From Lentibacillus amyloliquefaciens (GTDB lineage: Bacteria > Bacillota > Bacilli > Bacillales > Amphibacillaceae), in NCBI RefSeq assembly GCF_001307805.1, contig NZ_CP013862.1:2356001-2420000 (forward strand): a stretch of 64,000 bases of DNA. The letters are read 5' to 3'. The notes below the pieces were generated by a model. That model was not told where the DNA came from and searched no databases. It was given only the letters and a program-made list of their open reading frames with translations. The translations under genes and the position numbers were made by a program. Positions 31,836 to 48,653 of this stretch are shown here, piece by piece; position 1 is the stretch's first letter; each line of letters begins with the position of its first letter.

Positions 31836-32054
31836 ATGGACGACAAGTCATCCAATCACAACGCTATCCCCGAAAAAGTTGCAAAAGTCATGGTTGATGA
31901 AATATTTCGGAAAAACAATGTAAACCCTGAAGAAATCAAAAATAATATGACGAATGACCAGAAAAAAATGCTGAAAGAAATGGTTGAAGATCTAAAAGAA
32001 CAGGTGGATCAATTTAACAAAGGAGAAAAAGATACGACGAAAACAGATGAATAG
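31836..32054 (+). CDS. Small acidic/lysine-rich protein of the spore-coat cluster
   Basis: 72 residues, soluble, highly charged, with a predicted helical middle (EKVAKVMVDEIFRKNNVNPEEIKNNMTNDQKKMLKEMVEDLKEQVDQF). I do not recognise the family. Its position before two CotX-domain genes, a sporulation-type -10 (CATAAAATA at 31794-31802), and its own terminator suggest a small spore-coat or crust component like those in cotVWXYZ clusters, but that is inference. The ribosome site is AGCAGGTG. Confidence 0.7.
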   Translation: MDDKSSNHNAIPEKVAKVMVDEIFRKNNVNPEEIKNNMTNDQKKMLKEMVEDLKEQVDQFNKGEKDTTKTDE

Positions 32055-32064
32055 GAGTCTATTA

Positions 32065-32097
32065 AAGAAAACACCCATTTGATAGGTGTTTTCTTTA
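32065..32097 (+). terminator. Terminator after the small coat-cluster gene
   Basis: AAAGAAAACACC / GGTGTTTTCTTT perfect 12-bp stem with a 9-nt loop. Confidence 0.9.
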
Positions 32098-32154
32098 ATT
32101 TTGGCAAAAAACGATAATTTAGTGAATGTGTACAATCTGATTAGTAGGAATATC

Positions 32155-32163
32155 CATAGAGTA
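32155..32163 (+). promoter_or_regulatory. Sigma-K-like -10 element before the first CotX gene
   Basis: CATAGAGTA fits the sigma-K -10 pattern CATANNNTA. A matching -35 at the expected distance is not clear (ACA lies about 20 nt upstream). Similar -10 elements precede 31836 (31794-31802) and 33528 (33495-33503). Confidence 0.35.
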
Positions 32164-32192
32164 ATATTAACTCAAGAAAGGAGTGTTAATAA

Positions 32193-32906
32193 ATGTCACC
32201 AAAGAGACACAGTACCATGAACCCCTTTGGCAACAAAAGCAAATACTTTTACCTTAGGGATAAACGAAAACGCCGTCATCAACACTGCTGTCAGGATTGC
32301 GGATCCAACGATTGTTCATTTGAATCCAACCAATGTGACAGATGCAGAGACGAATATAAGCAGCGTGACCAAAGAGAAGAACACAAACATGGCCATCACC
32401 ACCGCTGTCAGAGTTGTGGATCCAATGACTGTTCCTCTGAATCCAACCAATGTGACAGATGCAGGGATAAACAGACGCATCATAACCACCATAACCAGCA
32501 TGACCGCTTTGAAATGGTCGAGGTCGATTCGGGCGCACTTGCTTCACAGGATGCAAGTCAATATTCCTTTATGGATCAGGAATCAGCAGAATTGATTTGG
32601 GTAAAGGAATCCTGTGATATTAAGGTTGATTCAAGAGACACCCAGATCGGGCTTTCACTTCAGGCTAGTTTACAGCTGGCTATATCCCTGGTAGTGAATA
32701 TTGCCATTGCGGATTCAGCAAGAAGTGAAGCCATATCACAAGACCTTATGCAGTCTTTTGACTCCGACCAAATCAATAAACAAAAAATCTTCATCTATAA
32801 CACTAAAGACGCTAATGTAACTACGAGAGACACAGATCTGGCCATCAATATCCAAGTTCTGCTGCAATTGTTGCTAATGCTGGTTGTAATGATTGACGTT
32901 TTATAA
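32193..32906 (+). CDS. Spore coat protein with CotX domain and duplicated Cys/His-rich N-terminus
   Basis: 237 residues. Residues 31-51 and 71-90 are two copies of a module with the shared core CGSNDCS.ESNQCDRC; the His-rich segments HKHGHHH and HHNHHNQH lie before and after the second copy. This looks like a duplicated zinc- or metal-binding knuckle. The rest (about 110-237) is a CotX/CotV-type domain made of two similar halves, each with (V)DSRDTQIGLSLQASLQLA- or TTRDTDLAINIQVLLQLL-like stretches. CotX proteins self-assemble in the B. subtilis spore crust. AAAGGAG lies 9 nt before the ATG. The Cys/His-rich N-terminal extension is not in classical CotX. Confidence 0.88.
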   Translation: MSPKRHSTMNPFGNKSKYFYLRDKRKRRHQHCCQDCGSNDCSFESNQCDRCRDEYKQRDQREEHKHGHHHRCQSCGSNDCSSESNQCDRCRDKQTHHNHHNQHDRFEMVEVDSGALASQDASQYSFMDQESAELIWVKESCDIKVDSRDTQIGLSLQASLQLAISLVVNIAIADSARSEAISQDLMQSFDSDQINKQKIFIYNTKDANVTTRDTDLAINIQVLLQLLLMLVVMIDVL

Positions 32907-32930
32907 AAATAATGAAAGGAGTGGAAAATT

Positions 32931-33371
32931 ATGAGCCATATGACAAAAACGAAATGGCGTGCACTTGACCATTGTGATGGAACAAGTGACCAAAATGATG
33001 CAGACGTGATGCAAGATGCGAACCAGGCTGTGTCCAATCAGCAAATTTCAGATGAATGGATTATCATTAAGGACTCCGAGAATATTGATGTCACAACTAC
33101 CGACAGACAGGCCGCTGTCTCCTTACAGCTTGCTATTGAAGCAGCGATTGGAGCCGTTATCAATATTTCTGTTGGGAACGGACCACAATCAGATAACGTA
33201 ACACAAGGCATTAGACAAATGGTCAATACAAGACAAGGGAACCACCAAAAAACAATTGTTGAACAATCAAGGGATATTGAAATTACCACAAGGGACACAG
33301 ATGTAGCTGTGAATATCCAATTGTTATTCCAGATTCTCGCTGCAATTGTTGCCAGCCTGGATATTCTGTAA
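32931..33371 (+). CDS. Spore coat protein with CotX domain
   Basis: 146 residues, second CotX-type protein, 24 bp behind the first and preceded by GAAAGGAG. The N-terminal ~50 residues are polar and Asp/Gln-rich (DHCDGTSDQNDADVMQDANQ). The CotX domain again shows two halves: IDVTTTDRQAAVSLQLAIEA and IEITTRDTDVAVNIQLLFQI, alternating with hydrophobic runs. Likely an insoluble structural crust protein that polymerises with its neighbour. The two genes form one transcription unit. Confidence 0.88.
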   Translation: MSHMTKTKWRALDHCDGTSDQNDADVMQDANQAVSNQQISDEWIIIKDSENIDVTTTDRQAAVSLQLAIEAAIGAVINISVGNGPQSDNVTQGIRQMVNTRQGNHQKTIVEQSRDIEITTRDTDVAVNIQLLFQILAAIVASLDIL

Positions 33372-33403
33372 TGGTCTTAAAAGAATTTCTGGGGATGGGG
33401 AGT

Positions 33404-33477
33404 AAACCAAAGAAGCGGAGATATTTCATTTCCTCCTCCCCGGAGGTCTGTATTTCAAGTCCTACTTTGGTTTTTTA
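33404..33477 (+). terminator. Possible long-loop terminator after the CotX genes
   Basis: AAACCAAAG (33404-33412) pairs with CTTTGGTTTTTT; a loop of about 52 nt contains an inner CCTCCCCGGAGG hairpin. Weaker than typical terminators because of the loop. Confidence 0.5.
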
Positions 33478-33527
33478 TCAAAATAGGACAAGAGCATAAA
33501 ATATCGATAACGAAAGGAATGAATGAA

Positions 33528-33913
33528 ATGGTTAACCTGACAAACCGTCAACGAGGTCTGTTGCGTCTGGCCAATCAATTATCGCAAAACTTAGTTAATG
33601 ATAATACGGATAACGGTTTGAGCCACAACTTTTCAGTTGATTTACCGGGCGTTGACTTCGATGCCGGACTCAATCTGGATCTTGGCACAAATGATGAAAC
33701 AGATACCCCCGCTGACCCATCACCTTCGACACCTGAAACGCTAAGGGATGTGTTGCTGGAATTACAGAATGAACAAGTGGAGGTAACAACCCATTTGGCC
33801 CGGTAACCGGTACAGTCATTTCAGTTCAAAATGACTATGTTGTATTAGTTGAAGCCGATGGATCACAAGTGCTTATTCCATTCGCAAACATTGAATTGGT
33901 CAGTGAATTATAA
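33528..33913 (+). pseudogene. Coat-cluster protein with DUF2642-like C-terminus, frameshifted
   Basis: The frame from 33528 (MVNLTNRQRGLLRLANQLSQ; AAAGGA 9 nt upstream) is Asp/Pro/Thr-rich in the middle (DTPADPSPSTPETL). It runs into a stop at 33806 right after EQVEVTT. One extra base in the CCC run at about 33791 would let it continue as PFGPVTGTVISVQNDYVVL to a stop at 33911, giving about 128 residues. The recovered end resembles the beta-rich core of the next gene. So this is a frameshifted gene or a sequencing error. It sits between CotX genes and another small coat-cluster gene and has a sigma-K-like -10 (CATAAAATA) upstream. Confidence 0.65.
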
Positions 33914-33926
33914 AGGAGGAATTCAA

Positions 33927-34142
33927 ATGTTTCAGGATACGTTTGCAGCTGAATTAGCCACACGTATTGGTTCAAGAGTCGAAGTAGCTACCGACAACAA
34001 CTTGATAGAAGGCATCCTCTCCACCGTAACCGCAGATTTAGTTCTTGTTGTTGAGGTTAATGGTGGTTATGGGGAAAATACCACACTATACCTGTCAATA
34101 GATGCTATCAACTTCGTCCGCTTTCCTGCTGCAGCCGCTTAA
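33927..34142 (+). CDS. Small DUF2642-like protein of the coat cluster
   Basis: 71 residues, with AAAGGAGG 7 nt before the ATG. The sequence alternates hydrophobic and polar residues as in a small beta-barrel: IGSRVEVATDNNLIEGILSTV, DLVLVVEVNG, TLYLSIDAINFVRF. This fits the DUF2642 type often found near spore-coat genes, but the family call is by pattern only. It lies 14 bp after the restored end of the preceding gene, so they probably form one operon. Two terminators follow. Confidence 0.65.
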   Translation: MFQDTFAAELATRIGSRVEVATDNNLIEGILSTVTADLVLVVEVNGGYGENTTLYLSIDAINFVRFPAAAA

Positions 34143-34156
34143 ACCATTGTTTACCG

Positions 34157-34190
34157 ATACCCCGGCTTATTTACAGCCGGGGTATTTCCT
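34157..34190 (+). terminator. Terminator after the coat cluster
   Basis: ATACCCCGGCT / AGCCGGGGTAT perfect 11-bp stem, 8-nt loop. Confidence 0.9.
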
Positions 34191-34198
34191 TTGTAATA

Positions 34199-34237
34199 AA
34201 ACATCCCCGCTTGGAAATCCAAGGGGGATGTTTTGCT
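34199..34237. terminator. Bidirectional terminator before the glycan locus
   Basis: AAAACATCCCC-CTTGGA / TCCAAG-GGGATGTTTT arms with a very short loop. It can end the minus-strand oxidoreductase gene and back up the previous terminator. Confidence 0.85.
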
Positions 34238-34286
34238 GTTTCATTTTGTTTTAGCAATAAAATAATTTTACCCGGCATACAAATTG

Positions 34287-35225
34287 CTAATGAGGTGTAT
34301 CGATCGAATCCGTTATCTGATTAGCAATCATAAGTGCCCGCTTGCCATCTTCTCCGGAAACAGACGGCTCTGTGCCGGCCTTAATACAATTGATAAAATC
34401 CGTTAACTGGAGGAATAACGGCTGCACCGAATCCCCGACCTGTACCTTTTGCGAGAGCGAAATCGGATGATTGCCAGTTTCCTCGCTAAACGTTCGTGTT
34501 ACATTGATTTCATGGTTGAGTATATCTGCTTCAATAAATGCGCTCTCTGTCTGGATTTGTATGGTACGGACTTTTCTTCCTGACATGAAACTTGCAGTAA
34601 ATTGTGCAGTAACTCCTTGTGACGTTCTGATGACGGCAGCTGCATGTTTTGGTATATTTTTAATGACTTTCCCAAAAGCATTGACTTCCAGAGCATTACC
34701 CTGACACAATTCATTTAAAATATAGATATCATGAATCATTAAATCTTTCACAACGTCTACATGACTAAGCTTTGCATTTGCCGGACTTATTCTGTGAAAA
34801 GCTGCGCCGACTATAGATTCACCTTTGAGCAAATCCAGCAGTACCTGAATGAACGGATTGTATAGCTCGATATGTCCTGTCTGAAGTTTAACACCTGTTT
34901 CAAATGCTTTTTTGATTAAATGATCGGCATCTGCAACGGTAGCAGTCAGCGGTTTTTCCATCAGCATATGAACGTTGTGCCTGACACATTCCAAACCAAT
35001 CTCATAATGAAATTCAGTCGGTACTGCAATGCTCACAGCATCGACTGATTTGAGAAGGCCATCGACGGATTGAAACGGTTTAACATTATACTTTTGTGCA
35101 ACCTGACGCCTTTTCTGTACATCATCATCATAGATACCTATAAGCTGGCAATCATCATCCATCGATAAATACGTACGTACATGATTTTCTCCCATATTGC
35201 CAGTTCCAATCACACCGACTTTCAT
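34287..35225 (-). CDS. Gfo/Idh/MocA-family sugar-nucleotide oxidoreductase (WbpB/WlbA or GnnA-like)
   Basis: NAD-dependent dehydrogenase of 312 residues. The Rossmann motif is KVGVIGTGNMGENHVRTYL, and the family signature MEKPLT follows at about residue 92. In the WbpB/WlbA and GnnA groups the enzyme oxidises C3 of UDP-GlcNAc or UDP-GlcNAc-uronate, preparing it for a DegT aminotransferase. The locus contains the DegT gene (46230), the acetyltransferase (36465), a nucleotide-sugar dehydrogenase (44887) and a 2-epimerase (39585), which supports this role. ATG chosen at 35225 with GAGGAG 7 nt upstream. It is divergent from the rest of the cluster. Confidence 0.8.
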   Translation of the reverse strand: MKVGVIGTGNMGENHVRTYLSMDDDCQLIGIYDDDVQKRRQVAQKYNVKPFQSVDGLLKSVDAVSIAVPTEFHYEIGLECVRHNVHMLMEKPLTATVADADHLIKKAFETGVKLQTGHIELYNPFIQVLLDLLKGESIVGAAFHRISPANAKLSHVDVVKDLMIHDIYILNELCQGNALEVNAFGKVIKNIPKHAAAVIRTSQGVTAQFTASFMSGRKVRTIQIQTESAFIEADILNHEINVTRTFSEETGNHPISLSQKVQVGDSVQPLFLQLTDFINCIKAGTEPSVSGEDGKRALMIANQITDSIDTPH

Positions 35226-35255
35226 AGACAATCTCCTCTTTTTTTAAAATACTAA

Positions 35256-35433
35256 TTTATCCCGCCTTAACGGGTGGAAAAAGCACCCCACTGAATGAAG
35301 TTTTACTTTTCCACTCATCTAATGGACAGTAGACCGCCCAAGTACAGCGGCCAACTGTTCCTAAATGCCTGATTTGTTCAACTAACAATCAGTGAAGAAA
35401 ACCATTTCACTGAATGAAGTTTTACTTTATCTT
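35256..35433 (-). repeat. Dispersed structured repeat, copies R3a/R3b (minus orientation)
   Basis: Read on the minus strand: ATAAAGTAAAACTTCATTC ... TTCACTGATTGTTAGTTGAAC ... GGCATTTAGGAACAGTTGG form one copy. A shortened second copy (AAAAGTAAAACTTCATTCAG ... GGCGGGATAAA) follows head-to-tail. It fills most of the gap between the oxidoreductase and the CgeB-like gene. Confidence 0.8.
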
Positions 35434-35525
35434 ATGCGTCAGCTATAAAACGAGCTAGACTATCATACCAATCAGGAGAAAATTGGCCTCTGCCTGCAGA
35501 AATGCTTAGACGAGGAGGTGAAAGC

Positions 35526-36449
35526 TTGATTCATATTCTACTTATTGCCGAAGATACTTCAGAACATTTGAATAAAAACTTCTATTATTTGGAACAAGAA
35601 CTGGCGAAACAGGTTTATTTATCGTTGTGGCGAAAACCAGGTCATATCAGCTATATTTTAAAAAAGCTTTCAGGAACCCCTGATTTTATCCTGCTGTTAA
35701 ACGATCTGGACCAAAAAATGTACCCCATGATTAAAGGCCTTGCCCACATTGATATTCCAACAGGCTTATTTATCAATGATGTTCACCGCTTGACGAAGTT
35801 ACGGAAAAACTTCATTGAAAAAAATGACATTGATCGTCTATTTACCGTTGTACGGGAAAAATTTTTAACAACATATCCGGAGTTTGCAATGAAAATGGAA
35901 TGGCTTCCAAACTTTGTCAACACAACTCTCTATAAAGACTATGGCCTGGCTAAAGATATTAATCTATTAATGATGGGCGCCGTTAATGATATTTATCCAC
36001 TAAGGCGAACGATTCTTAATGCCTATCAGGGTGATGCCAATTTTATCTATCACAGTCACCCGGGGTATCGGTATTTTTCCAAAGAAGAAGAAAGCCAACA
36101 TTTTATCGGCCAAACGTATGCAAAAGAGCTCAACCGATCCAAGATTTTCTTCACTAGCCCATCGACATTGAATTACCCGGTTATCAAATATTTTGAGGTG
36201 CTTGCCTGCCGATCTCTTCTTCTGGCACCTGCATTTAAGGAACTGGAGGATTTAGGTTTTATCCCCAATTTTCACTTTATTCCGATAAACGAACACAACT
36301 TCAAAGAAAAGGCTGCATATTATTTAGCACAAGAAACAGAAAGACAACAAATTGCCGATCAAGGTTATCGTTTCGTTCATGAACGTCACACTGTTCAACA
36401 ACGGACAGAGCAGCTTATCAAACGCATCGAAAAAATACTTGAACAGTAA
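35526..36449 (+). CDS. CgeB-like glycosyltransferase
   Basis: 307 residues of GT-B type, resembling the CgeB/Glyco_trans_1_2 group. The C-terminal half carries ELNRSKIFFTSPSTLNYPVIKYFEVLACRSLLLAP, the nucleotide-sugar-binding region in which the acidic residue of F-E is conserved, and a closing HTVQQRTEQL helix. B. subtilis CgeB is a sporulation gene connected with the outermost spore layer. The start is TTG at 35526 with an excellent GAGGAGGTG site 6 nt upstream. It is the first gene of a plus-strand run, and the following acetyltransferase begins 15 bp after it. Confidence 0.8.
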   Translation: MIHILLIAEDTSEHLNKNFYYLEQELAKQVYLSLWRKPGHISYILKKLSGTPDFILLLNDLDQKMYPMIKGLAHIDIPTGLFINDVHRLTKLRKNFIEKNDIDRLFTVVREKFLTTYPEFAMKMEWLPNFVNTTLYKDYGLAKDINLLMMGAVNDIYPLRRTILNAYQGDANFIYHSHPGYRYFSKEEESQHFIGQTYAKELNRSKIFFTSPSTLNYPVIKYFEVLACRSLLLAPAFKELEDLGFIPNFHFIPINEHNFKEKAAYYLAQETERQQIADQGYRFVHERHTVQQRTEQLIKRIEKILEQ

Positions 36450-36464
36450 AATGGAGGGATTCAC

Positions 36465-37154
36465 TTGTCTTCCGTACCTGAAAGTACACAGCTCGGAAAA
36501 CATGTTGTTATAGAAGATAATGTAGTAATAGGAAAGAATGTCACGATTGGCCATAACACAACAATCCTGCAAGGGACCCAAATAGGTGATGATGTCACCA
36601 TTGGCAATAACTGTGTCCTTGGGATTAAAACGTCCGGAAACCAGCTGATGCGGAAAAAAGCTGACAAAGATGGCCGTCTGAATATCCAGTCCGGGTCAAG
36701 AATAGGGCATATAGCATCCATCTATACCGGAACCAACATTGGTAAAAATGTGTTCATCGGTGATCATGCGAGCATCAGAGAAAATGTGTCGGTTGGTGAT
36801 AAATCTGTGGTCGGCAGAGCTGCAATCGTTGAATTGAACAGTTTAATTGGAGACTCCTGCACCATTCAGACACTGGCATATGTAACAGGAGATACGACAT
36901 TGGAAGACAATGTCTTTATCGGCCCGTGTGTATCCATGTCGAATGATAAATATATGGGCGCTAAAAATTTCACCCTGAACGGACCGTATATTAAAACAGG
37001 AGCAAAAATCGGCAATAATGCATCATTGCTTCCTGGAATTACAGTTGGCCGCGACAGTATAATCGGCGCCGGCGCTGCTGTTACGAAGGATATAGAAGAT
37101 AATATAACAGCTGCAGGGGTTCCTGCTAAAAGGCTTAATCACAATGGTGACTAA
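36465..37154 (+). CDS. Hexapeptide-repeat acetyltransferase (WbpD/WlbB-like)
   Basis: 229 residues of left-handed beta-helix built from [IV]G-x4 hexapeptides (VVIEDNVVIGKNVTIGHNTTI ... VTIGNNCVLG and IGNNASLLPGITVGRDSIIGAGAAVTKDI). The closing AAGVPAKRL is typical. This layout matches acyltransferases that N-acetylate 3-amino sugars on UDP-GlcNAc-uronate (WbpD/WlbB), and the partner enzymes are in the locus. The start is TTG with GGAGGG 8 nt upstream. Longer than the 190-200 residues usual for WbpD, with an extra coil between residues 50 and 75. Substrate is inferred from context. Confidence 0.8.
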   Translation: MSSVPESTQLGKHVVIEDNVVIGKNVTIGHNTTILQGTQIGDDVTIGNNCVLGIKTSGNQLMRKKADKDGRLNIQSGSRIGHIASIYTGTNIGKNVFIGDHASIRENVSVGDKSVVGRAAIVELNSLIGDSCTIQTLAYVTGDTTLEDNVFIGPCVSMSNDKYMGAKNFTLNGPYIKTGAKIGNNASLLPGITVGRDSIIGAGAAVTKDIEDNITAAGVPAKRLNHNGD

Positions 37155-37237
37155 TAGCGTTGGACACCATTACTTCGCCGTAATACCCGACTCACTTTCT
37201 CAACAAGCAAACAAACCAGCAGGAAAGGTGGATTGTA

Positions 37238-38461
37238 ATGGCCAAAAAAGTTTGTATGGTTGTTGCTCACCATCCATTTACAGATGCCAGAATTTTTAAG
37301 AAAGAGGCAAAAAGCTTACAGAAAAAAGGCTATCATATCACCATGATTGTCCCGAGACAAAGCGGAAAATTGTTTGACATTGATGGCACCCCTTATCGAA
37401 AACAATTCCGAAATAAAGTTTTTACCTATGAAGGCATAAAAATTGTCACGTACCATTCCGAAAGCAGTCAAAAGGCATTAAGTACTGTATTAAGTAATGA
37501 AAGTGTCTGGGAAAGAAAAGGGTTTAATAACACCCTCACGCAGCTTGCCATTCAGGAAGACGCTGATATATACCATGCGCACGAGTATCTCTCGCTGTTT
37601 GCCGGAATTGGCATTAAGCGGCAGATGAAGAAAAAGAAAGGAAAAGATGTCAAATTAATATACGACAGTCATGAGTTGACGCCAGACCCTTTAGATCCAA
37701 GATATACTGAGGAACGAAGAGATCTTTTGAAACAAAAGCTTTTGACAATGCTTGATGAAGTTGATCATGTTATAACGGTTTCCCATTCGATTAAATCATG
37801 GTACTTATCCCATAAACCGGACCTGCCCGTTGACGTTATCTATAATTCTCCCCCGCTAGCTCAACATCATAAACCGAAAGCATATAACTCGAATGGGCTA
37901 ACGGTTGGCTACGAAGGTAATATTGACACCAGCCTGGGCGGAATGGAAAAGTTTCTCGACATTTCTGAATTATGTTCAAAAGAGTTGGATTTTGAATTCA
38001 AAATTATCGGAGGAAGCCGGTATGGCGATTCGATTAATATACCAACCAATCTGAAGCATCAAATCATGTTAACCGGATGGGTCGATTACCATGCGATTCC
38101 AAAGCAAATGCATGATATTGATGTGGGTATGGTCGATTTAGAAGGCGTCGAATACTCACTTAACCGGGACTATGCATTGCCGAATAAATTTTTCAGTTAT
38201 CTGAACAACGGTGTACCAGTGGTGGTTAATAAATGCAAAGAAATGAAGGAATTTATCAACAGACATCATTGCGGCTTTGTAATCGACAAAACGAATGCAA
38301 CATCACATGACTTTGCCGATGCCTTTCTTTCGCTTCACCAGGATAAAAACAAATTACAGCAAATGAGCCAAAATAGCCGTCATGTCATGGAAAAATTCTA
38401 TTCATGGGAAAACATGGAGAAACGGCTGTTCGCTATTTATCAATCACTTTTCGCAACATAA
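37238..38461 (+). CDS. GT4-type glycosyltransferase (paralogue A)
   Basis: 407 residues, GT-B fold. The N-terminal domain starts KVCMVVAHHPFTDARIFKKEAKSL and includes YHAHEYLSLFAGIGIKR and YDSHELTPDP; the C-terminal donor domain has PNKFFSYLNNGVPVVVNKC. It is the same length as, and clearly related to, the gene at 42540 (shared DARIFKKxAKSL, IYDSHEL, VIYNSPPLA, FFSYLNNGVPV). So the locus has duplicated a transferase, probably to add different sugars or linkages. GAAAGGTG precedes the ATG. Confidence 0.85.
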   Translation: MAKKVCMVVAHHPFTDARIFKKEAKSLQKKGYHITMIVPRQSGKLFDIDGTPYRKQFRNKVFTYEGIKIVTYHSESSQKALSTVLSNESVWERKGFNNTLTQLAIQEDADIYHAHEYLSLFAGIGIKRQMKKKKGKDVKLIYDSHELTPDPLDPRYTEERRDLLKQKLLTMLDEVDHVITVSHSIKSWYLSHKPDLPVDVIYNSPPLAQHHKPKAYNSNGLTVGYEGNIDTSLGGMEKFLDISELCSKELDFEFKIIGGSRYGDSINIPTNLKHQIMLTGWVDYHAIPKQMHDIDVGMVDLEGVEYSLNRDYALPNKFFSYLNNGVPVVVNKCKEMKEFINRHHCGFVIDKTNATSHDFADAFLSLHQDKNKLQQMSQNSRHVMEKFYSWENMEKRLFAIYQSLFAT

Positions 38462-38523
38462 ACATTTAATCCATGTAATCAATGTGCTGTTTTTTTACAA
38501 TACATGAAGGAAGGTGCAGCGTT

Positions 38524-39546
38524 TTGAAATCTGAACCGATTCGTAATATTAACGTAACCCTGCATGATGAGTTTGAGTTAGAAGGGAAAAAAATAGGTGA
38601 TGAGCTATTTATACCAGTTTCGTTAATCGACAAAGGATTAAATCTGGAAAAACAATGGAACGAAAAAACACAGACATTAAAGTTAAAGGAGACACATGCG
38701 AACGTGTTCGATATCAGCCATTACGACAGCATGGGAAATTACTTGCACTATGACAAAAATAAGGTAGAAAACTGGAATGTAACATTCACTCGCGAAGGAA
38801 TTCCCAAAACCATATACCCGCACGGTGCTTACTTTAACCCATCCACTATCGCTCAATACGGATTGCAGCATTACAGTCTATATTTAAAAACGAATGACGT
38901 ATCGAATAAGTATAAATTCCTGAAAGCAGCAGATTGGTTTGTAAATCACCAAGATTCCCATGGCGGCTGGGCCTATCAATTCAACCATGATTTCTTTCCA
39001 GACAGACTGAATAAACTGAAGGCACCATGGTATTCAGCAATTGGTTTGGGTATGGCTATGTCGGTTTTATCACGAGCATCGTTCCTGACAAAAAATAGCA
39101 AATACAGTTCATGTGCTTTAAAAGCCAAGATACTATTTAAAACCCCTTCTGCCGGAAATGGTGTGCTGGCTAAATTTGAAAACAAGTATCTATTCTATGA
39201 AGAATGTCCGACAGATCCGCCCAGTTATATTTTAAATGGGTTCATGTTTTCATTAATCGGATTATATGACTTATTCAAATCAACAGGCAATAGCGAGGCA
39301 AATTGGTTATATGACAAAGGAATTGCCACTTTGAAAAGAATGCTTCCACTCTACGATTTAGGACACCGGACAGCATATGATCTGACACATTATACAACTG
39401 ATGGCGGCTACCCGAACGTTGCCACCTGGGGGTATCATATTGGGCATATTCATTTGCTGGCTGCCATAAATTCGATTGAAAAAGATCTGAAAATGAACGA
39501 AGCCCTCCAAAGGTGGAAAGAATATTTAAAAGGAAAAACAATTTGA
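38524..39546 (+). CDS. D-glucuronyl C5-epimerase-like protein
   Basis: 340 residues. The C-terminal two thirds match the heparosan/heparan glucuronyl C5-epimerase domain: WFVNHQDSHGGWAYQFN, APWYSAIGLGMAMSVLSRAS, FYEECPTDPPSYILNGFMFSLIGLYDL and YDLTHYTTDGGYPNVATWGYHIGHIHLL. In that family the conserved Tyr and Glu residues and the PPSYILNG segment line the active site; the enzyme inverts C5 of a uronic acid within the polymer. No signal peptide or membrane anchor is seen, so it would act in the cytoplasm or inside the forming spore (mother cell). The start is TTG at 38524 with GAAGGAAGGTG 7 nt upstream. Its neighbours make uronic sugar nucleotides, the natural substrate class. Confidence 0.82.
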   Translation: MKSEPIRNINVTLHDEFELEGKKIGDELFIPVSLIDKGLNLEKQWNEKTQTLKLKETHANVFDISHYDSMGNYLHYDKNKVENWNVTFTREGIPKTIYPHGAYFNPSTIAQYGLQHYSLYLKTNDVSNKYKFLKAADWFVNHQDSHGGWAYQFNHDFFPDRLNKLKAPWYSAIGLGMAMSVLSRASFLTKNSKYSSCALKAKILFKTPSAGNGVLAKFENKYLFYEECPTDPPSYILNGFMFSLIGLYDLFKSTGNSEANWLYDKGIATLKRMLPLYDLGHRTAYDLTHYTTDGGYPNVATWGYHIGHIHLLAAINSIEKDLKMNEALQRWKEYLKGKTI

Positions 39547-39556
39547 ATAACCGTCG

Positions 39557-39597
39557 AAAAAAGCTGAGTGGATCTATATCCGGCTCAGCTTTTTTCA
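39557..39597. terminator. Bidirectional terminator between the C5-epimerase-like gene and wecB
   Basis: AAAAAAGCTGAG / CTCAGCTTTTTT perfect 12-bp stem with a 15-nt loop. The right arm includes the last codons and stop of wecB. Confidence 0.9.
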
Positions 39598-41653: not shown

Positions 41654-41666
41654 TCCTTTCAATTCG

Positions 41667-42425
41667 TTAAAAATTCAACCGGGACTGCCCGCCATCGACC
41701 GTGATCGTCGACCCTACTATCCAGGAAGCCTTATCAGACGCTAAAAACGCAGCCGTATGACCGATCTCTTCCGGTGTTCCAAGCCGTCCTGCCGGAATTT
41801 TTTCCCGGGCATAGTTTTTTAAATAATCCGGATTACGCTCAAGTCTCCGTTCCCATTCCTTATTGGGATGATAAACTGCACCGGGGGCAATGCCGACGAC
41901 CCGAACATTATCTTTAATGACCTCTGAACTGAATGATTTAGTAAAACTGATCAATGCAGCCTTAGAGGCATTATAGGAGGGCGAGCCACCGGACTCTTTC
42001 CCATATATGGACGAAATATTGATGATGACTCCCTTTTCACTTTCTATCATGCTATGACCCGCTAACTGACTTAAATGGACTGCCGATATCAAGTTTAATG
42101 CCATTGTGTCTTCAAATACACTAGGCGGCGTATTTACGATCGACGTGCCATGATTGGTCGCTGCATTGTTAACCAGTATGTCAATAGTATTAAAATCATC
42201 GATAAATTCAGCAATCAGCTGTTCTCTATCTTCGTGTTTTAATAGATCTTTCTGGTAGATTGTATGAAGACCCAGCTCTTTTTTTGTCTGCAAAAGTTCG
42301 GTGCGGGATCTGGCTGCAATGCCAACCTGTGCGCCTTCAGCGAGAAATGCCTGTGCAATTGCTTTTCCAATTCCTCTTGCTCCTCCGGTTACCAGCACCT
42401 TCTTTCCTTTGAGATTCAGCTCCAT
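41667..42425 (-). CDS. Short-chain dehydrogenase/reductase
   Basis: Classical SDR of 252 residues. Cofactor loop TGGARGIGKAIAQ, NNAATNHG, catalytic Ser in INISSIYG, and YNASKAALISF with Tyr-x3-Lys; the C-terminus ends VDGGQSRLNF as in FabG-type reductases. The substrate is unknown. In this position it may reduce a keto-sugar or make a lipid or polyol needed for the glycan, which is inference only. Starts the minus-strand trio; GAGGAG lies upstream of the ATG, 115 bp from the divergent glycosyltransferase. Confidence 0.85.
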   Translation of the reverse strand: MELNLKGKKVLVTGGARGIGKAIAQAFLAEGAQVGIAARSRTELLQTKKELGLHTIYQKDLLKHEDREQLIAEFIDDFNTIDILVNNAATNHGTSIVNTPPSVFEDTMALNLISAVHLSQLAGHSMIESEKGVIINISSIYGKESGGSPSYNASKAALISFTKSFSSEVIKDNVRVVGIAPGAVYHPNKEWERRLERNPDYLKNYAREKIPAGRLGTPEEIGHTAAFLASDKASWIVGSTITVDGGQSRLNF

Positions 42426-42539
42426 CTTCTCTCCTCCCCGAAATCAATGCTTTACACTTACTTTCCTAATTGTATGAATAAATCCGGAAAGTTGTTAATA
42501 CGTTAGCAGTAGTGCTTTAGCCAATTTCAGGAGGGAATC

Positions 42540-43763
42540 ATGGGAAAAAATGTCTGTTTCTTAGTGTCTGAACATCCGTTTTTAGACGCCAGGATTTTTA
42601 AAAAACAAGCAAAAAGCCTGTTGAAACAAGGATATGAAGTAACAATGGTCGTACCCAGAAGACAAGGATACCTGTTTGCTACAGATGGAAGTGTTTTTAA
42701 GGAGGCGTTTTTAAGTCAGACGTTTAGTCATGAAGGTATCAATGTTGTGACATATGAACAGTTGGAACTGGAGAAGCACATGAAAGCACTGTACCATCAC
42801 CTTCGTTCCGGGGACCATTCCCGTTACAATCATCCCCTGACAAGGATTGGCATTGATCAAAAGGCTGATATTTATCATGCACACGAGTTTATGTCATTAT
42901 ATGCAGGCATTGGAATCAAACGGGCTTTAACGGCAAGCGGAAGGCAATGCAAGTTGATCTATGACAGCCACGAATTAGAGCCCGATCCTTTGATTAATGA
43001 ACCCCGCAATACTCAAAATATTAAAAAGCAAATGCTAAAACTTATGCTAAGCGAACTTGACTATGTGATAACCGTATCGGAATCCATTAAGACATGGCAC
43101 CGCACCATAAATCCTCATGTGCCCATCGAAGTGATTTATAATTCTCCCCCTTTAGCATCCGAATACAACCCCGACAAGGGTGGCACTCAAGAAATTGTCC
43201 TCGGATATGAAGGGAGTTTGAATCGCAAAAGGGGCAATTTCCGAAAACTCATTCACATATTGAAGAAGTGCCAGCAGCATTTTCCAATGAAAGTCAAAAT
43301 CATTGGAGGAGGCAAGCATTTCGAAAGAGATTACCTCCAGCAACTGGACCCACACGTTAAAGAGAAAATTACGTATACTGGCTGGGTAAACTATGAAGCA
43401 ATTCCTGAAGCCATGAAAGATGTTGATATCGGATGGATCGACTTAGATGCTGCCAATTCCTTGAATAACCGCTTTGCGATGCCAAACAAGTTCTTCAGTT
43501 ATTTGAATAACGGTGTGCCGGTTATCGTCAATCAATGCACAGATATGGAAAATTTTATTGAAGCATATAATTGCGGCTACACTGTCAAAAAACAGCAAGC
43601 CACCGCCGAGGATTATGTGCGAACGCTGATCCATGCGGCATCAGACAGAAACAAAATCCGGGAGATGGGCTCGTCTGCACGCAACATCATGGAGACCATG
43701 TATAGCTGGGAACACATGGAGAAGCGGTTGTTCACTGTTTATCGTCAATTATCACAAGACTAG
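42540..43763 (+). CDS. GT4-type glycosyltransferase (paralogue B)
   Basis: 407 residues, the duplicate of the 37238 protein. It starts NVCFLVSEHPFLDARIFKKQAKSL and has IYHAHEFMSLYAGIGIKR, IYDSHELEPDPL, VIYNSPPLA and PNKFFSYLNNGVPVIVNQC at the donor site. The two copies share length and order of motifs but differ widely outside them, so the duplication is not recent. AGGAGGG is 5-6 nt before the ATG. It is followed by another transferase whose start lies 16 bp downstream. Confidence 0.85.
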   Translation: MGKNVCFLVSEHPFLDARIFKKQAKSLLKQGYEVTMVVPRRQGYLFATDGSVFKEAFLSQTFSHEGINVVTYEQLELEKHMKALYHHLRSGDHSRYNHPLTRIGIDQKADIYHAHEFMSLYAGIGIKRALTASGRQCKLIYDSHELEPDPLINEPRNTQNIKKQMLKLMLSELDYVITVSESIKTWHRTINPHVPIEVIYNSPPLASEYNPDKGGTQEIVLGYEGSLNRKRGNFRKLIHILKKCQQHFPMKVKIIGGGKHFERDYLQQLDPHVKEKITYTGWVNYEAIPEAMKDVDIGWIDLDAANSLNNRFAMPNKFFSYLNNGVPVIVNQCTDMENFIEAYNCGYTVKKQQATAEDYVRTLIHAASDRNKIREMGSSARNIMETMYSWEHMEKRLFTVYRQLSQD

Positions 43764-43778
43764 GAAAGGATGGTCACG

Positions 43779-44783
43779 ATGCGGGTATTACATTTGCCTT
43801 ATGGCTCGCCTATGATTGAATTGTCCAATGCACTGCGGTCAAAAGGCATTCAGTCGACATCATGCCATTTCAATGAACACCCGTTTGAATTCAAGCCTGA
43901 TATTTGTTTGCAGCTGAATACGCTGTCGAATCAGGAACAAACAAAAAAGCTGAAGCAATTTTTAAAGGAATCGATGCTTCAGTATGACATTTTTCATTTT
44001 CATTTCGGCGAAACTTTTTTTGCTGACAAAAGCGACCTAAAAATGCTGGAACGTGCCGGAAAGAAGATGGTTGTTCATCATCACGGTTCGGAAATCAGAC
44101 TTAAATCCGCTGCACAAACAAATAACCCTTACGTTCGGATAAAACCTGAATGGACTGAAGAAAAGATCAATCGACGTAACAGCACGCTGGCAAATTATAT
44201 CGCTCATGCGATTGTTCAGGATTATGAATTGGAATCATATATTAAAACTGCCTATAAACATGTCCACGTTATTCCACACACGATTGATGCCAATCAATAT
44301 ACACCACATTATCCATCCCCAAAAAACACACCTCCCCTTGTTGTACACGCTCCGTCATCTCGGCATATTAAAGGGACGGAATTCATCCTTAATGCAGTGA
44401 ACGAATTGAAGCGTTCAGGCTTATCATTCCAATTTCAATTAATTGAAGGCGTTTCGAATGAGGAAGCCAAAAATCTTATAGCCAAGGCAGATCTCGTCAT
44501 CGATCAGCTGCTTATTGGTGCCAGTGGTTATATCAGTTCGGAAGCCATGGCCTTTGGAAAACCTGTCATATGTTATATCAGACAGGATCTTGTATCAAAG
44601 TACCCGCGGGGGCTGCCTGTCGTCAATGCGAATCCCGATACCATAACCGCTGTTTTAAAAAATCTCCTCCAAAACCCGCAGAAATGGAAAGATCTCGGTA
44701 TAAAAGGAAGAAAATATATTGAAAAGCATCATCACGCTCCCATAGTGGCAAATCGCTATATTGACATTTATAAGAAGTTATAA
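43779..44783 (+). CDS. GT4/GT1-type glycosyltransferase
   Basis: 334 residues with a GT-B layout: N-terminal acceptor domain (RVLHLPYGSPMIELSNAL, FHFHFGETFFA, VVHHHGSEIR) and C-terminal donor domain (VVHAPSSRHIKGTEFILNAV, GASGYISSEAMAFGKPVICYI with the E-x7-E-like pair). The acceptor and sugar are unknown. ATG at 43779 with GAAAGGA 8 nt upstream; the frame extends to 43770. Operon with paralogue B; ends with a strong terminator. Confidence 0.82.
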   Translation: MRVLHLPYGSPMIELSNALRSKGIQSTSCHFNEHPFEFKPDICLQLNTLSNQEQTKKLKQFLKESMLQYDIFHFHFGETFFADKSDLKMLERAGKKMVVHHHGSEIRLKSAAQTNNPYVRIKPEWTEEKINRRNSTLANYIAHAIVQDYELESYIKTAYKHVHVIPHTIDANQYTPHYPSPKNTPPLVVHAPSSRHIKGTEFILNAVNELKRSGLSFQFQLIEGVSNEEAKNLIAKADLVIDQLLIGASGYISSEAMAFGKPVICYIRQDLVSKYPRGLPVVNANPDTITAVLKNLLQNPQKWKDLGIKGRKYIEKHHHAPIVANRYIDIYKKL

Positions 44784-44821
44784 GCAGTCCGGAAAACTAA
44801 GAATTGGACTGCTTATTTTTT
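44782..44821 (+). terminator. Terminator after the glycosyltransferase pair
   Basis: AAGCAGTCC / GGACTGCTT perfect 9-bp stem, 15-nt loop, then ATTTTTT. Confidence 0.9.
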
Positions 44822-44886
44822 AGAATCTCATTAGTCAGTCCAATCGTTACTACTTTCACTCCCATAGACTATACAATAAACATCTT

Positions 44887-46233
44887 ATGACGACAGAAAT
44901 GGGGTTTGACATCATCATGACAGGTTATAGCGCATCATTACCGAATGTAGCAGTCGTTGGTCTCGGCAAAATAGGTTTGACATTAGCCGCTGTCTTTGCC
45001 AATCATCGTTACAATGTTTTCGGTGCAGATATCAATCCCGATGTCGCAGCATCGGTAAACCAAGGTATATCCCACATTCAAAACGAGCCGGGATTGGACC
45101 GGCTGGTATTAACCGCTCATAAAAATAATACGTTATCAGCTACAACAAACACTGCCGAAGCTACAGCTCAGGCAGAGATTATCGTTGTAATCGTCCCAGT
45201 GTTAACAGACGAACAAAATCAGGTTGATTACCAATTGATTGATCGCGCAGTCGCGGAGATAGCCAAAGGCATTAAAAAAGATGCAATGGTTATTTTTGAA
45301 ACAACACTCCCGCCCGGAGATACCGAAAATCGGTTTGGTAAAAAAATAGAGGAAATTTCGGGGCTGCGTCCTGGCCGGGATTTTGATCTCGCATATAGTC
45401 CTGAACGCGTATATTCCAATCAGATTATTCACGATTTGGGACATTACCCGAAAGTTGTTGGAGGAATAAATGAAAAGAGTCTTAAAAGCGCTGCAGCCTT
45501 TTATAAAAATGCTCTTGGCTGTAAGTTAATTGAAGTTAGTTCACTGGTAACAGCTGAGTTTTCGAAGGTTGCCGAGTGCGTTTATCGCGATGTCAACATT
45601 GCGCTGGCCAACGAATTGGCCATGTTCGCAGAGGATAAAGGCGTCAGTATGGCTGAAGTGATAAGCGCCAGCAACAGCCAGCCCTACTCCAATATACACT
45701 CGCCCGGAATTGGCGTTGGGGGGCATTGTATTCCAATCTATCCCTATTTTTTTATTAACAAAGGATTAAGTACAGGTCTCACTCCATTATCGCGAGAAAT
45801 CAATGATAGCATGGCGGATTATGCCATTGGCAAAATCGAAAAACAGATCGGGTCATTAAAGAATAAAAATACCCTTATCCTTGGGTTATCGTATCGTGGA
45901 AATGTGAAGGAACCAACTAAATCAACCACACTAGTTCTTATTGACCGGATGCTGGAAAAAGGAGCAAACCCATTCGTTAACGATCCACTCTTTTCCGACC
46001 GGGAAATCAAACAGCACGGGGCTGCTCCGCTATCATTATATGATGACAACTGTTCAAAAATCGATGCTGTGATCCTGCAGTCATTTCATGAGGAATACAA
46101 CGAAATTGACTTTAGTCAATTCACAAACTGTCAGCTCGTTTTAGACGGAAGAAATAAACTGAACAGCCAGGAAATCTCACGGCTTGGGATAACGTATGAG
46201 TCGATCGGAAACCAAGGGAGGCAGTGCCCATGA
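44887..46233 (+). CDS. UDP-N-acetyl-hexosamine 6-dehydrogenase (WbpA/WecC-like)
   Basis: Four-electron NAD-dependent oxidation of the C6 hydroxyl of a UDP-HexNAc to a uronic acid. It is 448 residues. NAD loop VAVVGLGKIGLTLAAVFA, VSSLVTAEFSKVAECVYRDVNIA with the catalytic Lys region, the catalytic Cys in GIGVGGHCIPIYPYFF, and a C-terminal UDP-binding domain (ILGLSYRGNVKEPTKST). The N-acetyl-sugar type (WbpA/WecC/TviB) is supported by length and by the absence of GFGGSCFPKD typical of UDP-glucose dehydrogenase. The start is uncertain: there is no good ribosome site at 44887, and ATG at 44917 is an alternative. Translationally close to the DegT gene, which starts inside its end. Confidence 0.85.
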   Translation: MTTEMGFDIIMTGYSASLPNVAVVGLGKIGLTLAAVFANHRYNVFGADINPDVAASVNQGISHIQNEPGLDRLVLTAHKNNTLSATTNTAEATAQAEIIVVIVPVLTDEQNQVDYQLIDRAVAEIAKGIKKDAMVIFETTLPPGDTENRFGKKIEEISGLRPGRDFDLAYSPERVYSNQIIHDLGHYPKVVGGINEKSLKSAAAFYKNALGCKLIEVSSLVTAEFSKVAECVYRDVNIALANELAMFAEDKGVSMAEVISASNSQPYSNIHSPGIGVGGHCIPIYPYFFINKGLSTGLTPLSREINDSMADYAIGKIEKQIGSLKNKNTLILGLSYRGNVKEPTKSTTLVLIDRMLEKGANPFVNDPLFSDREIKQHGAAPLSLYDDNCSKIDAVILQSFHEEYNEIDFSQFTNCQLVLDGRNKLNSQEISRLGITYESIGNQGRQCP

Positions 46234-47354
46234 CACAGAATGAATGGAGTCATATACCAATGGTTGACTTAAAAAAAGAGCTGTCAATCATCCGATCACC
46301 TATACTAGAGGCGATCACCGATGTTTTAGACAGCGGTGACTATATACTGGGGGAAAAGGGCAAGCAGCTGGAAAAGGCTTCTGCCCAATATGTCGGTTCC
46401 ACTTATGCCATTGGAGCTGCAAGCGGAACTGACGCTTTAGCACTGTCTCTGAAATCTTTGGACATTGGACCGGGGGATGAAGTGATCACAACTCCTTTCA
46501 CCTTCTTTGCCACGGCAGAAGCGATTGTGCAAGTCGGTGCAAAGCCTGTTTTTGCTGATATTGAGGAAGAAACGTATAACATTGACCCGGACAGCATTGA
46601 GAAGGCAGTAACCACAGACACAAAGGCACTCATAGTTGTTCATTTGTATGGCAAGGCCGCAAATATGCAGGAGATTATGCAGGTTGCAGACAAATACGGG
46701 TTATGGGTGATTGAAGACGCCTGCCAGGCAATTGGCACAGAGTATAACAGCAAGCGAACAGGAGCAATTGGAGACATTGGCTGTTTCTCCTTCTTTCCAT
46801 CCAAAAACTTGGGTGCATTTGGGGATGCCGGGCTGGTGTCCACCAACCGCCGGAATATATATGAAAAGATTCTTCAGCTTCGAAACCATGGCAGCAAGGA
46901 GAAGTACTATCATTCAGAGATCGGGATGAATAGCAGGCTTGACGAAATGCAAGCAGCCATTCTGCTTGTGAAATTATATTATTTGGATATTTTCCTGCAT
47001 AACCGAATGGAAATCGCCAGAAGGTATACCGAAAGCCTGTCCCATCTTCTGAAAACACCGCCGATTGTCAAACATCGGGAGCATACGTTTCATCAATATT
47101 GCATTGAGTCTGATAAACGGGATGAACTTGCATTGGCTTTAAAACAAAATGGCATTGATTCAGCGATTTATTACCCTGTTCCATTGCACTTACAGCCAGC
47201 TTTCGACTATCTCGGTTATAACAAAGGAGATTTCCCGGTTGCTGAAAGAAAGGCCGAAAGAATAGTGGCACTTCCAATTTCTCCGATGCTATCTTTTCAA
47301 GAACAGAACTATATTATTAAAACGATAAAAGGTTTTCTGGAGAACAATGGCTAG
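46230..47354 (+). CDS. DegT/DnrJ/EryC1/StrS-family sugar aminotransferase (WbpE/WlbC-like)
   Basis: PLP-dependent transaminase that puts an amino group on a keto sugar nucleotide. It is 374 residues. Motifs: GDYILGEKGKQLEK, AIGAASGTDALALSL, ITTPFTFFATAEAI, VIEDACQAIGTEY (PLP Asp), GCFSFFPSKNLGAFGDAG (PLP Lys in SKN), and LRNHGSKEKYYH / GMNSRLDEMQAA. The motif HGS and SRLDE fit the WbpE/WlbC group that aminates C3. ATG at 46230 with GGGAGG 8-9 nt upstream. It overlaps the dehydrogenase by 4 nt, which supports sequential action. Confidence 0.9.
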   Translation: MTQNEWSHIPMVDLKKELSIIRSPILEAITDVLDSGDYILGEKGKQLEKASAQYVGSTYAIGAASGTDALALSLKSLDIGPGDEVITTPFTFFATAEAIVQVGAKPVFADIEEETYNIDPDSIEKAVTTDTKALIVVHLYGKAANMQEIMQVADKYGLWVIEDACQAIGTEYNSKRTGAIGDIGCFSFFPSKNLGAFGDAGLVSTNRRNIYEKILQLRNHGSKEKYYHSEIGMNSRLDEMQAAILLVKLYYLDIFLHNRMEIARRYTESLSHLLKTPPIVKHREHTFHQYCIESDKRDELALALKQNGIDSAIYYPVPLHLQPAFDYLGYNKGDFPVAERKAERIVALPISPMLSFQEQNYIIKTIKGFLENNG

Positions 47355-47371
47355 GAAATGCCATTGTTCTC
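47340..47371. terminator. Bidirectional hairpin at the convergent gene ends
   Basis: GAGAACAATGGC / GCCATTGTTCTC perfect 12-bp stem with an 8-nt loop that includes the aminotransferase stop codon. No T-run, so termination may be weak. Confidence 0.6.
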
Positions 47372-47375
47372 AACG

Positions 47376-48653
47376 CTATTCGAGTGTTTTCAGAAAACCA
47401 TTCCAGCTGGCAAGGTTTTGTTTAGTGATGCTTTTTTTATGTTCCCGTACATTATATACGGTGAAATCGCTATATTGAAATCGTCCTTTTTTTAATAGAC
47501 GGTTTAATACACTGACATCTTCATAAAGCCTGCCATCTGCAAAATCAATAACCGGAAAGCCGCCTTCTTTTTTTAACAAAGAGGTGCGGTAAATGCGTGG
47601 ACCGAGCGGAAAGCGGTAGGATAAAAGTTCCTTCTTTCCTCTAACAACAGTACCGTTGGCATGTCCTTTAAACATGACGTCATCTTGCAATTGTTTCCAT
47701 TTTCTGAGATTGCCGTACAGTACTGAGACATCCTCCGGCAAACCCGCCAAGTGTTTTTTGATGGTGGAAACAGCATCAGGATCAAGCCAGTCATCAGCAT
47801 CAAGCTCCAATATAAAATCAGATGTGACGTGTGGCAGCAATGCGTTTAAGGCTCTTGCTTTCCCTCCATTCTCTTTGCTGAACATTTTCACCCGAGAATG
47901 ACCACGATAACACTGAAGCCGCTGCTGTGTATTATCCATTGATCCATCATCCATGATAAGCAGCTGTTCCGCTTGTTCATTTTGCAGCAGGCAGGAGGCA
48001 GCAGCCGTTTGGACATATGCTTCCATATTGTAAGCTGACATGATAATCGAAAGGCTGGGATAATCAGAGGTTGTTTTTTCCAAATGATATTTTTGTATAA
48101 TTTTTTGTCTTTCAATCACATTCTTGGAGTTGTTTTTCCTGGTCTGTTTCACTAGATTCTCTTGAAAGTTTTTATGAGGCGATTTGACCGTAGCAAGCCA
48201 GGCTGAAAAAAGCGCCTCCTTAAATGGCAACTCGTAAGATAGCATAAAGGGATGCTGTCTTAGAAATAACGTGCGAACGAGTAAAGGCTGACGAGTCGAG
48301 ATGCCCCGGTTATATACAAACGTTCCTAAAACGGAATGATTCCCGGCTAATTGAAGGGAAGGAGACGTTAAGACAGCCGACAGATAATCAGTACCGCTCA
48401 GCAATAACACATAAGTCGTGTCGATCGTGTTGATGGTTTCCTGCAATACCTCCCCTTCGTCCTGTTTTTCAATCGAGACAAATCGAATCCGGTCAGACCA
48501 ATCAACATCAGGCACTTGCTTAAACGCACTCGCCCTTTGTTGAAAAACGATAACTGCATTTAGCCTGGAGCTAACCGATTTTAACGACACCAAAGCTTTT
48601 GAAAGTGCTGTCTGAACAGAATAATGAATTAGGATGGCGGTTATATCCCTCAA
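47376..48653 (-). CDS. GT2-family glycosyltransferase
   Basis: 425 residues. The N-terminal ~200 residues look like a diverged GT-A-like half (DITAILIHYSVQTALSKALVSLKS ... YVLLLSGTDYLSAVL). The C-terminal half is a clear GT2 domain: YPSLSIIMSAYNMEAYVQTAAASC, LLIMDDGSMDN and the DxD-type ELDADDWLDPDAV. So it may carry two transferase-like modules. The start is TTG at 48653 with GGAGGAG 5 nt upstream; the frame extends to 48710 without a site. It faces the aminotransferase gene over a hairpin and is the last gene of the glycan locus. Confidence 0.83.
   Translation of the reverse strand: MRDITAILIHYSVQTALSKALVSLKSVSSRLNAVIVFQQRASAFKQVPDVDWSDRIRFVSIEKQDEGEVLQETINTIDTTYVLLLSGTDYLSAVLTSPSLQLAGNHSVLGTFVYNRGISTRQPLLVRTLFLRQHPFMLSYELPFKEALFSAWLATVKSPHKNFQENLVKQTRKNNSKNVIERQKIIQKYHLEKTTSDYPSLSIIMSAYNMEAYVQTAAASCLLQNEQAEQLLIMDDGSMDNTQQRLQCYRGHSRVKMFSKENGGKARALNALLPHVTSDFILELDADDWLDPDAVSTIKKHLAGLPEDVSVLYGNLRKWKQLQDDVMFKGHANGTVVRGKKELLSYRFPLGPRIYRTSLLKKEGGFPVIDFADGRLYEDVSVLNRLLKKGRFQYSDFTVYNVREHKKSITKQNLASWNGFLKTLE

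Follow-up and report, generated by a model that had tools for sequence, protein, structure and literature searches.

The Wbp and Wlb genes for diacetamido-mannuronate O-antigens of Pseudomonas and Bordetella presumably encode the same five enzyme types as the locus described here, a group of sugar-nucleotide and glycosyltransferase (GT) genes beside spore-coat genes of Lentibacillus amyloliquefaciens (contig NZ_CP013862.1, positions 2,356,001 to 2,420,000; these 64,000 nucleotides are called the window). Unlike Wbp/Wlb, this locus is spore-linked, has no export genes and carries an added C5-epimerase, and its dehydrogenase and Gfo/Idh/MocA (Gfo) oxidoreductase are not assignable to WbpA and WbpB. 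The chemistry of spore-surface glycans has been worked out in few species. In Bacillus subtilis, the crust glycan genes (sps, cge, yfn, and ytc) likewise combine sugar-nucleotide enzymes and glycosyltransferases that serve a crust with CotX-type proteins, but sps makes legionaminic acid, the first nonulosonic acid reported on spores, and the accessible text of that study reports neither uronic acids nor a C5-epimerase there (PMC7439481). As far as the accessible part of PMC13308652 describes them, vertebrate GLCE and the Bermanella C5-epimerase share the PF06662 domain, the fold, and four of five catalytic residues with the window's protein, which differs in its spore locus, its shorter length, a Cys in place of Tyr500, and a likely amino-sugar substrate; just one bacterial enzyme with C5-epimerase activity is named in that part. 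A diacetamido-uronate secondary cell-wall polymer is reported, in the portion of the literature available, for Bacillus (Geobacillus) stearothermophilus NRS 2004/3a, which gives the same sugar class in a Gram-positive relative, in the cell wall rather than on the spore surface. Engineered spore display of alginate epimerases is described in the accessible part of PMC12016494. No description of amino-uronic acids or of a native C5-epimerase on spores was recognised among the literature matches listed, which covered few subscription journals.

We consider it fairly probable that, during late sporulation, the mother cell uses the window's locus to make a spore-crust glycan of diacetamido-uronates in its cytosol, and that this glycan is C5-epimerised after transfer. 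UDP-N-acetylglucosamine (UDP-GlcNAc) would be oxidised at C6 by the product of the gene at 44887, oxidised and aminated at C3 by those at 34287 and 46224, N-acetylated by that at 36465, and epimerised at C2 by that at 39585, yielding UDP-2,3-diacetamido-2,3-dideoxy-glucuronate (UDP-GlcNAc3NAcA) and its manno counterpart, UDP-ManNAc3NAcA. A further sugar would be supplied by a pair of enzymes, an NAD-epimerase and a short-chain dehydrogenase/reductase (SDR), and the chain would be built by five glycosyltransferases. The C5-epimerase (38482) would then invert C5 of the transferred uronates, giving L-gulo- or L-ido-type acidic residues, and the chain would be attached to crust proteins, either CotX or the small proteins S95 and S97. 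We infer the substrates, the order of the steps, the C5-epimerised product, the chain length, the attachment, and the location on the spore. The spores of this host are probably coated with an unusual acidic sugar, and a further acidic sugar class besides legionaminic acid is predicted on spores. A bacterial cousin of the animal enzyme that matures heparan sulfate sits here among the spore-crust sugar genes of a salt-loving spore-former.

The genome of the window is a single contig of 3.86 Mb. In order come the trp genes, S72, CotXa, CotXb, S95, S97, the cassette of 13 kb (34287-47354), and, on the minus strand, the GT2 gene (47376-48710). Pfam and NCBIfam searches recovered the genes of the original prediction where it had placed them, namely two CotX genes adjoining five glycosyltransferases and five named enzyme types, but its list had missed the C5-epimerase, the NAD-dependent epimerase/dehydratase (40667-41662), and the SDR-family reductase (41667-42425).

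The C5-epimerase homologue and the predicted amino-uronate enzymes

The C5-epimerase gene (38482-39546, plus strand) encodes a protein with the C5-epim_C domain (PF06662, 175 bits against a cut-off of 23.3; E 1.4e-51), which scored 198 bits against the animal GLCE chain 4pw2. In the PDB, the eight best fold matches of its AlphaFold2 model (mean predicted local distance difference test [pLDDT] 81.8) were all GLCE chains (E 1e-20 to 2e-19), and the next match had an E of 2e-3. The protein is therefore, by family, sequence, and fold, a homologue of the heparan-type D-glucuronyl C5-epimerases. The catalytic residues of human GLCE are E499, Y500, N510, Y560, and Y578 according to the accessible part of PMC13308652. 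Hand mapping on the 4pw2 alignment showed that E499, N510, Y560, and Y578 are kept as E241, N252, Y299, and Y318 of the window's protein. Such an enzyme would change the final sugar.

Next to it, the non-hydrolysing 2-epimerase of the UDP-GlcNAc3NAcA type (39585-40703, minus strand; Epimerase_2) scored 403 bits to the solved UDP-2,3-diacetamido-2,3-dideoxy-glucuronate 2-epimerases (8sxv-8syh). Among chains of UDP-GlcNAc 2-epimerases, 4neq, which is so named, scored 334 bits, CapG 192, and the rest at most 181. Judged by these scores, the protein is clearly closest, among solved structures, to the UDP-2,3-diacetamido-glucuronate 2-epimerases. Its match to 8sxv begins at residue 12, and its true start is probably near 40670.

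The other four enzymes fit a diacetamido-uronate pathway less specifically by their sequences. NCBIfam and structure-chain scores were obtained for the DegT aminotransferase (46224-47354, plus strand), predicted to be of the C3 type. It scored higher against QdtB (316), WbpE (288), and NtdA (205), which we take to act at C3, than against perosamine synthetase (176), 6blg (168), and ArnB (157), and its top-scoring chain was 7b0d, named as a glutamine--scyllo-inositol transaminase. The Gfo oxidoreductase, a predicted sugar 3-dehydrogenase (34287-35231, minus strand; PF01408), had the UDP-GlcNAc 3-dehydrogenase model NF040723 as its best model, at 203 bits and below the cut-off of 450. Its nearest solved chain was 7bvj, for which no function is stated, and the solved-structure matches listed for it included none with a WbpB or WlbA label. 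The hexapeptide acetyltransferase (36465-37154, plus strand) was nearest to chains 7s43 (80.5 bits), 7s3u, and QdtC, with the WlbB-type 3mqg lower at 54.6 bits. The nucleotide-sugar 6-dehydrogenase (44887-46233, plus strand) matched TIGR03026 at 331 bits, over the cut-off. Taken together, the set is read as making UDP-GlcNAc3NAcA and UDP-ManNAc3NAcA, and both one and two amino sugars are compatible with it.

Linkage to coat genes and sigma-K-like promoters

A scan with the C5-epimerase alignment yielded 52 loci, among them 19 related Bacillales loci (L016-L034). Seven core genes (Gfo, the CgeB-like GT, acetyltransferase, C5-epimerase, 2-epimerase, dehydrogenase, and a GT4) stood together in 16 of these 19 loci; L027 lacked Gfo and the dehydrogenase in its stretch, and L032 and L033 held part of the set. 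The DegT gene lay outside the fetched stretch in some of the 19. CotX was found within the stretch in nine of them, and S97 in 14. CotX was farther off in L021 (16 kb) and L023 (about 12.5 kb, if on the same contig), lay on a different contig in L028, and was not found within 30 kb of the cluster in L030.

Among 100 relatives, a close C5-epimerase (at least 62% identity) was present in 10. Nine of these genomes had CotX on the same contig (eight within 5.5 kb and one at 16 kb), and the tenth was without CotX. CotX itself was present in 42 of the 100, so that 33 CotX genomes had no close C5-epimerase. A close 2-epimerase (at least 62%) and a close DegT protein (at least 64%) occurred in the same 10 genomes and in one more, G054, where CotX lies 6 kb from the 2-epimerase gene and the Gfo gene is split. 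The C5-epimerase was absent from the G054 genome, and the NAD-epimerase and SDR were absent from its 20-kb contig. From this gene content, the amino-uronate steps look like the core, and C5-epimerisation like an addition. The conservation of the core in 16 of 19 loci and the CotX linkage in nine of 10 close genomes ruled out a chance neighbourhood.

We then searched for promoter motifs 15-80 bases before the gene starts, which were set by a simple rule, in those upstream regions of 21 loci (the window, L016-L034, and L075) that were 60 bases or longer. Expected counts came from shuffles, and other genes of the same loci served as controls. Of the 183 regions from cassette and coat genes, 46 contained the sequence CATANNNTA, which we take to be the -10 motif of sigma-K, against 7.5 expected (standard deviation 2.5), whereas the controls gave 4 of 119 against 3.8. 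The looser CATANNNT was found in 75 of 183 (20.8 expected; controls 12 of 119 against 12.1), and CATANNNTA combined with AC at -35 in 28 of 183 (3.8 expected; controls 0 of 119 against 2.4). These counts are not independent, because the regions are related by descent. By gene, CATANNNTA preceded S72 in 3 of 3 regions, CotX in 8 of 11, Gfo in 13 of 19, the dehydrogenase in 12 of 17, S95 in 3 of 11, CgeB in 1 of 18, and the SDR gene in 0 of 16 (CATANNNT in 9 of 16).

In the window, sigma-K-like -10 motifs were located before S72 (31794-31802, plus strand), CotXa (32155-32163, plus strand), and the dehydrogenase gene (44863-44871, plus strand), and a looser -35/-10 pair before the SDR unit (42468-42495, minus strand); such a motif also precedes S95. 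Sigma-K is encoded in the same genome (380 bits, cut-off 298.65). By motif enrichment, the coat and cassette genes are predicted to have mother-cell late promoters. GerE boxes were found in 8 of 11 CotX regions.

No export-family protein was found in the window's cassette by Pfam and family searches, and export genes may lie elsewhere. Hydropathy analysis of the cassette proteins showed that the N-terminal stretch of the dehydrogenase alone passes the membrane threshold. The absence of a transporter gene from the cassette is what one would expect if the mother cell assembled the glycan in its cytosol, around the spore as it forms.

Weighing of the alternatives

Several observations weigh against a C5-epimerised diacetamido-uronate glycan of the spore. 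The first concern the enzymes. The dehydrogenase is nearest to UDP-N-acetylmannosamine (UDP-ManNAc) dehydrogenases (259 bits to an archaeal model, below its cut-off; chain 4r16), and the window's genome encodes two further UDP-glucose-type dehydrogenases, so plain glucuronic acid (GlcA) may be available. For DegT, the best NCBIfam model was the 4-aminotransferase PseC (248 bits, below the cut-off of 423.5), although the structure scores make a 4-aminotransferase less likely. The original prediction had named DegT clustering with 4-aminotransferases as a result that would speak against it; the structures favour C3 types, while the best, sub-threshold family model points the other way. It had also held that the enzymes are exactly the WbpA-B-E-D-I steps. 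The direction and the 2-epimerase match stand, while WbpA and WbpB are unsupported as exact identities: UDP-ManNAc dehydrogenases are the closest matches of the dehydrogenase, and the best model of Gfo is below its cut-off with no WbpB- or WlbA-labelled chain listed. The polymer that it proposed is likewise conjectural.

A further point is the catalytic site, where one of the five residues is changed, and the position of human Tyr500 is Cys242 in the window; because of this replacement, activity on plain GlcA is not claimed for the enzyme. Cys occupied this position in all 19 loci L016-L034, and among 73 C5-epimerase proteins the letters were Cys in 43, Tyr in 25, Ala in two, Ser in two, and a gap in one. 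The Tyr-type proteins include those of the Bacillus pinisoli, Pseudoalteromonas, Pleurocapsa, and Desulfosporosinus loci. As a guess, the change to Cys would fit a bulkier substrate. It cannot serve as a strict marker of a diacetamido substrate, since a Priestia plasmid has the full gene set with a Tyr-type epimerase, and the Tyr-type loci L039, L044, and L046 have DegT and acetyltransferase homologues in their stretches. Moreover, descent confounds the Cys/Tyr pattern, because the sequences closest to the window's protein are the ones with Cys. The locus draws attention to numerous bacterial C5-epimerases whose substrates are probably amino-sugar uronates.

These enzyme data bear on the alternative that the crust glycan is made of other sugars. 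The 2-epimerase and the WecC-like dehydrogenase would then make UDP-N-acetylmannosaminuronate (UDP-ManNAcA), the Gfo, DegT, and acetyltransferase proteins a separate 3-acetamido sugar, and the C5-epimerase would act on GlcA or ManNAcA. Besides the affinity of the dehydrogenase, this would fit the loci of B. pinisoli (L035), Pseudoalteromonas (L036), and Pleurocapsa (L037), where the C5-epimerase is accompanied by just a dehydrogenase and a distant 2-epimerase. Since the window's 2-epimerase is far nearer to the UDP-diacetamido-glucuronate 2-epimerases than to the bacterial UDP-GlcNAc 2-epimerases, we regard this alternative as unlikely.

The remaining points concern the spore. CotX was found nowhere in six of the 19 related genomes (L020, L025, L029, L031, L032, and L033), one of which, L025, has CotZ upstream of the cluster (136 bits). 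The check that the original prediction had suggested, a search for CotX next to the set in other Bacillaceae, thus gave linkage in nine of 10 close genomes and none in these six, so that the linkage is not universal. The window's own Gfo and CgeB genes have no sigma-K-like motif upstream. GerE boxes were not enriched overall (9 of 183 regions against 7.1 expected), which gives no support to GerE control of the whole cluster. The genes might instead serve a vegetative capsule or cell-wall polymer and stand beside coat genes by coincidence, which would agree with the genomes lacking CotX and with the wall polymer reported for B. stearothermophilus. We judge this quite improbable, because sigma-K-like motifs were enriched in the cassette and coat regions, while TATAAT was not (14 of 183 against 12.0 expected), and the controls showed the reverse (15 of 119 against 5.6), which also argues against the purely vegetative expression that the original prediction had named as its refutation. 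The lack of an export gene in the cassette and the recurring linkage to crust genes, on a plasmid included, likewise oppose it. A degenerate or inactive locus, to which the shortened S95 of the window and the split Gfo gene of G054 might point, is very improbable, as the window's enzyme genes are open over their full length and conserved across genera.

Probable exchange of the cassette, and its neighbouring genes

The spore-crust glycan locus probably represents a new form that is exchanged as a cassette. An empty slot, in which S97 adjoins GT2, was found in Lentibacillus halodurans (L071), G001 (L069), and Virgibacillus ndiopensis (L083). Other genes occupied the far side of GT2 in L. jeotgali (L072; a PF02719 dehydratase, a PF14667 reductase, a sulfotransferase, a GT61, and a CgeB-like GT) and G009 (L073; a sulfotransferase, a GT2, and a distant 2-epimerase). 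Directly behind S97, Virgibacillus sp. YIM 98842 (L079, 465-8573) carries two genes of sulfate activation (adenosine 5'-phosphosulfate kinase and ATP-sulfurylase) together with genes for a transporter, a sulfotransferase, and a GT2; this gene content suggests a sulfated spore glycan. In V. phasianinus (L078, 4767-13530), a duplicated CotX/S95/S97 frame encloses two GT2 genes and a collagen-repeat gene. The coat frame is not universal, because S97 and GT2 were both not found in the stretches of other CotX loci (e.g., L070, L074, L080-L082, and L084-L088).

The Priestia megaterium plasmid NZ_CP151784 (67.7 kb; L098, L068) carries S72, CotX genes, GT2, S97, and S95 with the full sugar set. Its C5-epimerase is distant, of the Tyr type, and belongs to a different lineage; the plasmid also has additional DegT and GNAT genes. 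A CgeB-like GT is present on six Priestia plasmids, three of which were examined, and the two besides NZ_CP151784 had coat genes and sulfotransferase genes.

A GT2 tree was built from 17 rows, leaving out L034, whose GT2 gene is incomplete in the fetched stretch. On it, the cassette label needed six changes (shuffled mean 5.7), at least three of them forced; many branches were weak. Gain and loss are indistinguishable on this tree, and GT2 may recombine with the cassette. A TrpB tree of seven rows was not resolved, with just one forced change. The window's base composition showed no sharp step (G+C 41.8% in the cassette, 40.6% in the coat genes, and 44.6% downstream). The locus suggests that spore surfaces may diversify by gene-cassette exchange, much like O-antigens. 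More tentatively, we propose that the CotX locus of halophilic and related Bacillales may be a spore-surface 'serotype' locus, in which a fixed frame (S72, CotX, S95, S97, and GT2) takes exchangeable cassettes on chromosomes and plasmids. Glycosaminoglycan-like acidic chains would arise through C5-epimerised 2,3-diacetamido-uronates or sulfation, and the C5-epimerase of one lineage would have been reshaped for amino-sugar uronates (Tyr500 to Cys, rarely Ala or Ser).

Among the remaining cassette genes, the NAD-dependent epimerase/dehydratase and the SDR-family reductase (both minus strand) were assigned by family searches. The CgeB-like glycosyltransferase (35502-36449, plus strand; PF13524) has some relatives with the UniRef label YkvP/CgeB. 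GT4a (37238-38461, plus strand) carries PF13439 and PF13692, and GT4b (42540-43763) and GT4c (43770-44783), both on the plus strand, are of the GT4 type. The GT2 gene (PF00535) is conserved and bounds the cassette slot on its far side; a search with it returned no informative name.

On the coat side, all genes lie on the plus strand. S72 (31836-32054) has no Pfam family, its profile matches lie beside CotX in most CotX loci fetched, and it presumably resembles CotW. S95 (33519-33806) is shortened in the window by a frame change within 33519-33913, with its C-terminal part in another frame to about 33913, whereas the relatives are full length; this may be a sequencing slip or a real loss. The S95 relative on the Priestia plasmid is annotated as YuzF family. 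S97 (33927-34142) matched DUF2642 weakly, below the cut-off, and its model (pLDDT 82.3) has a predicted Sm-like fold, with 9bxa_E, chain E of the Mnx complex of Bacillus sp. PL-12, as the best but weak match (E 1.2e-3). CotXa (32193-32906; PF07552, 123 bits) and CotXb (32931-33371; 126 bits) each have two Coat_X domains (cut-off 27), and CotZ is also encoded in the window's genome. At its start (32193-32600), CotXa has a nearly identical Cys-rich stretch twice, as CQDCGSNDC and as CQSCGSNDC, with a spacing like that of zinc ribbons.

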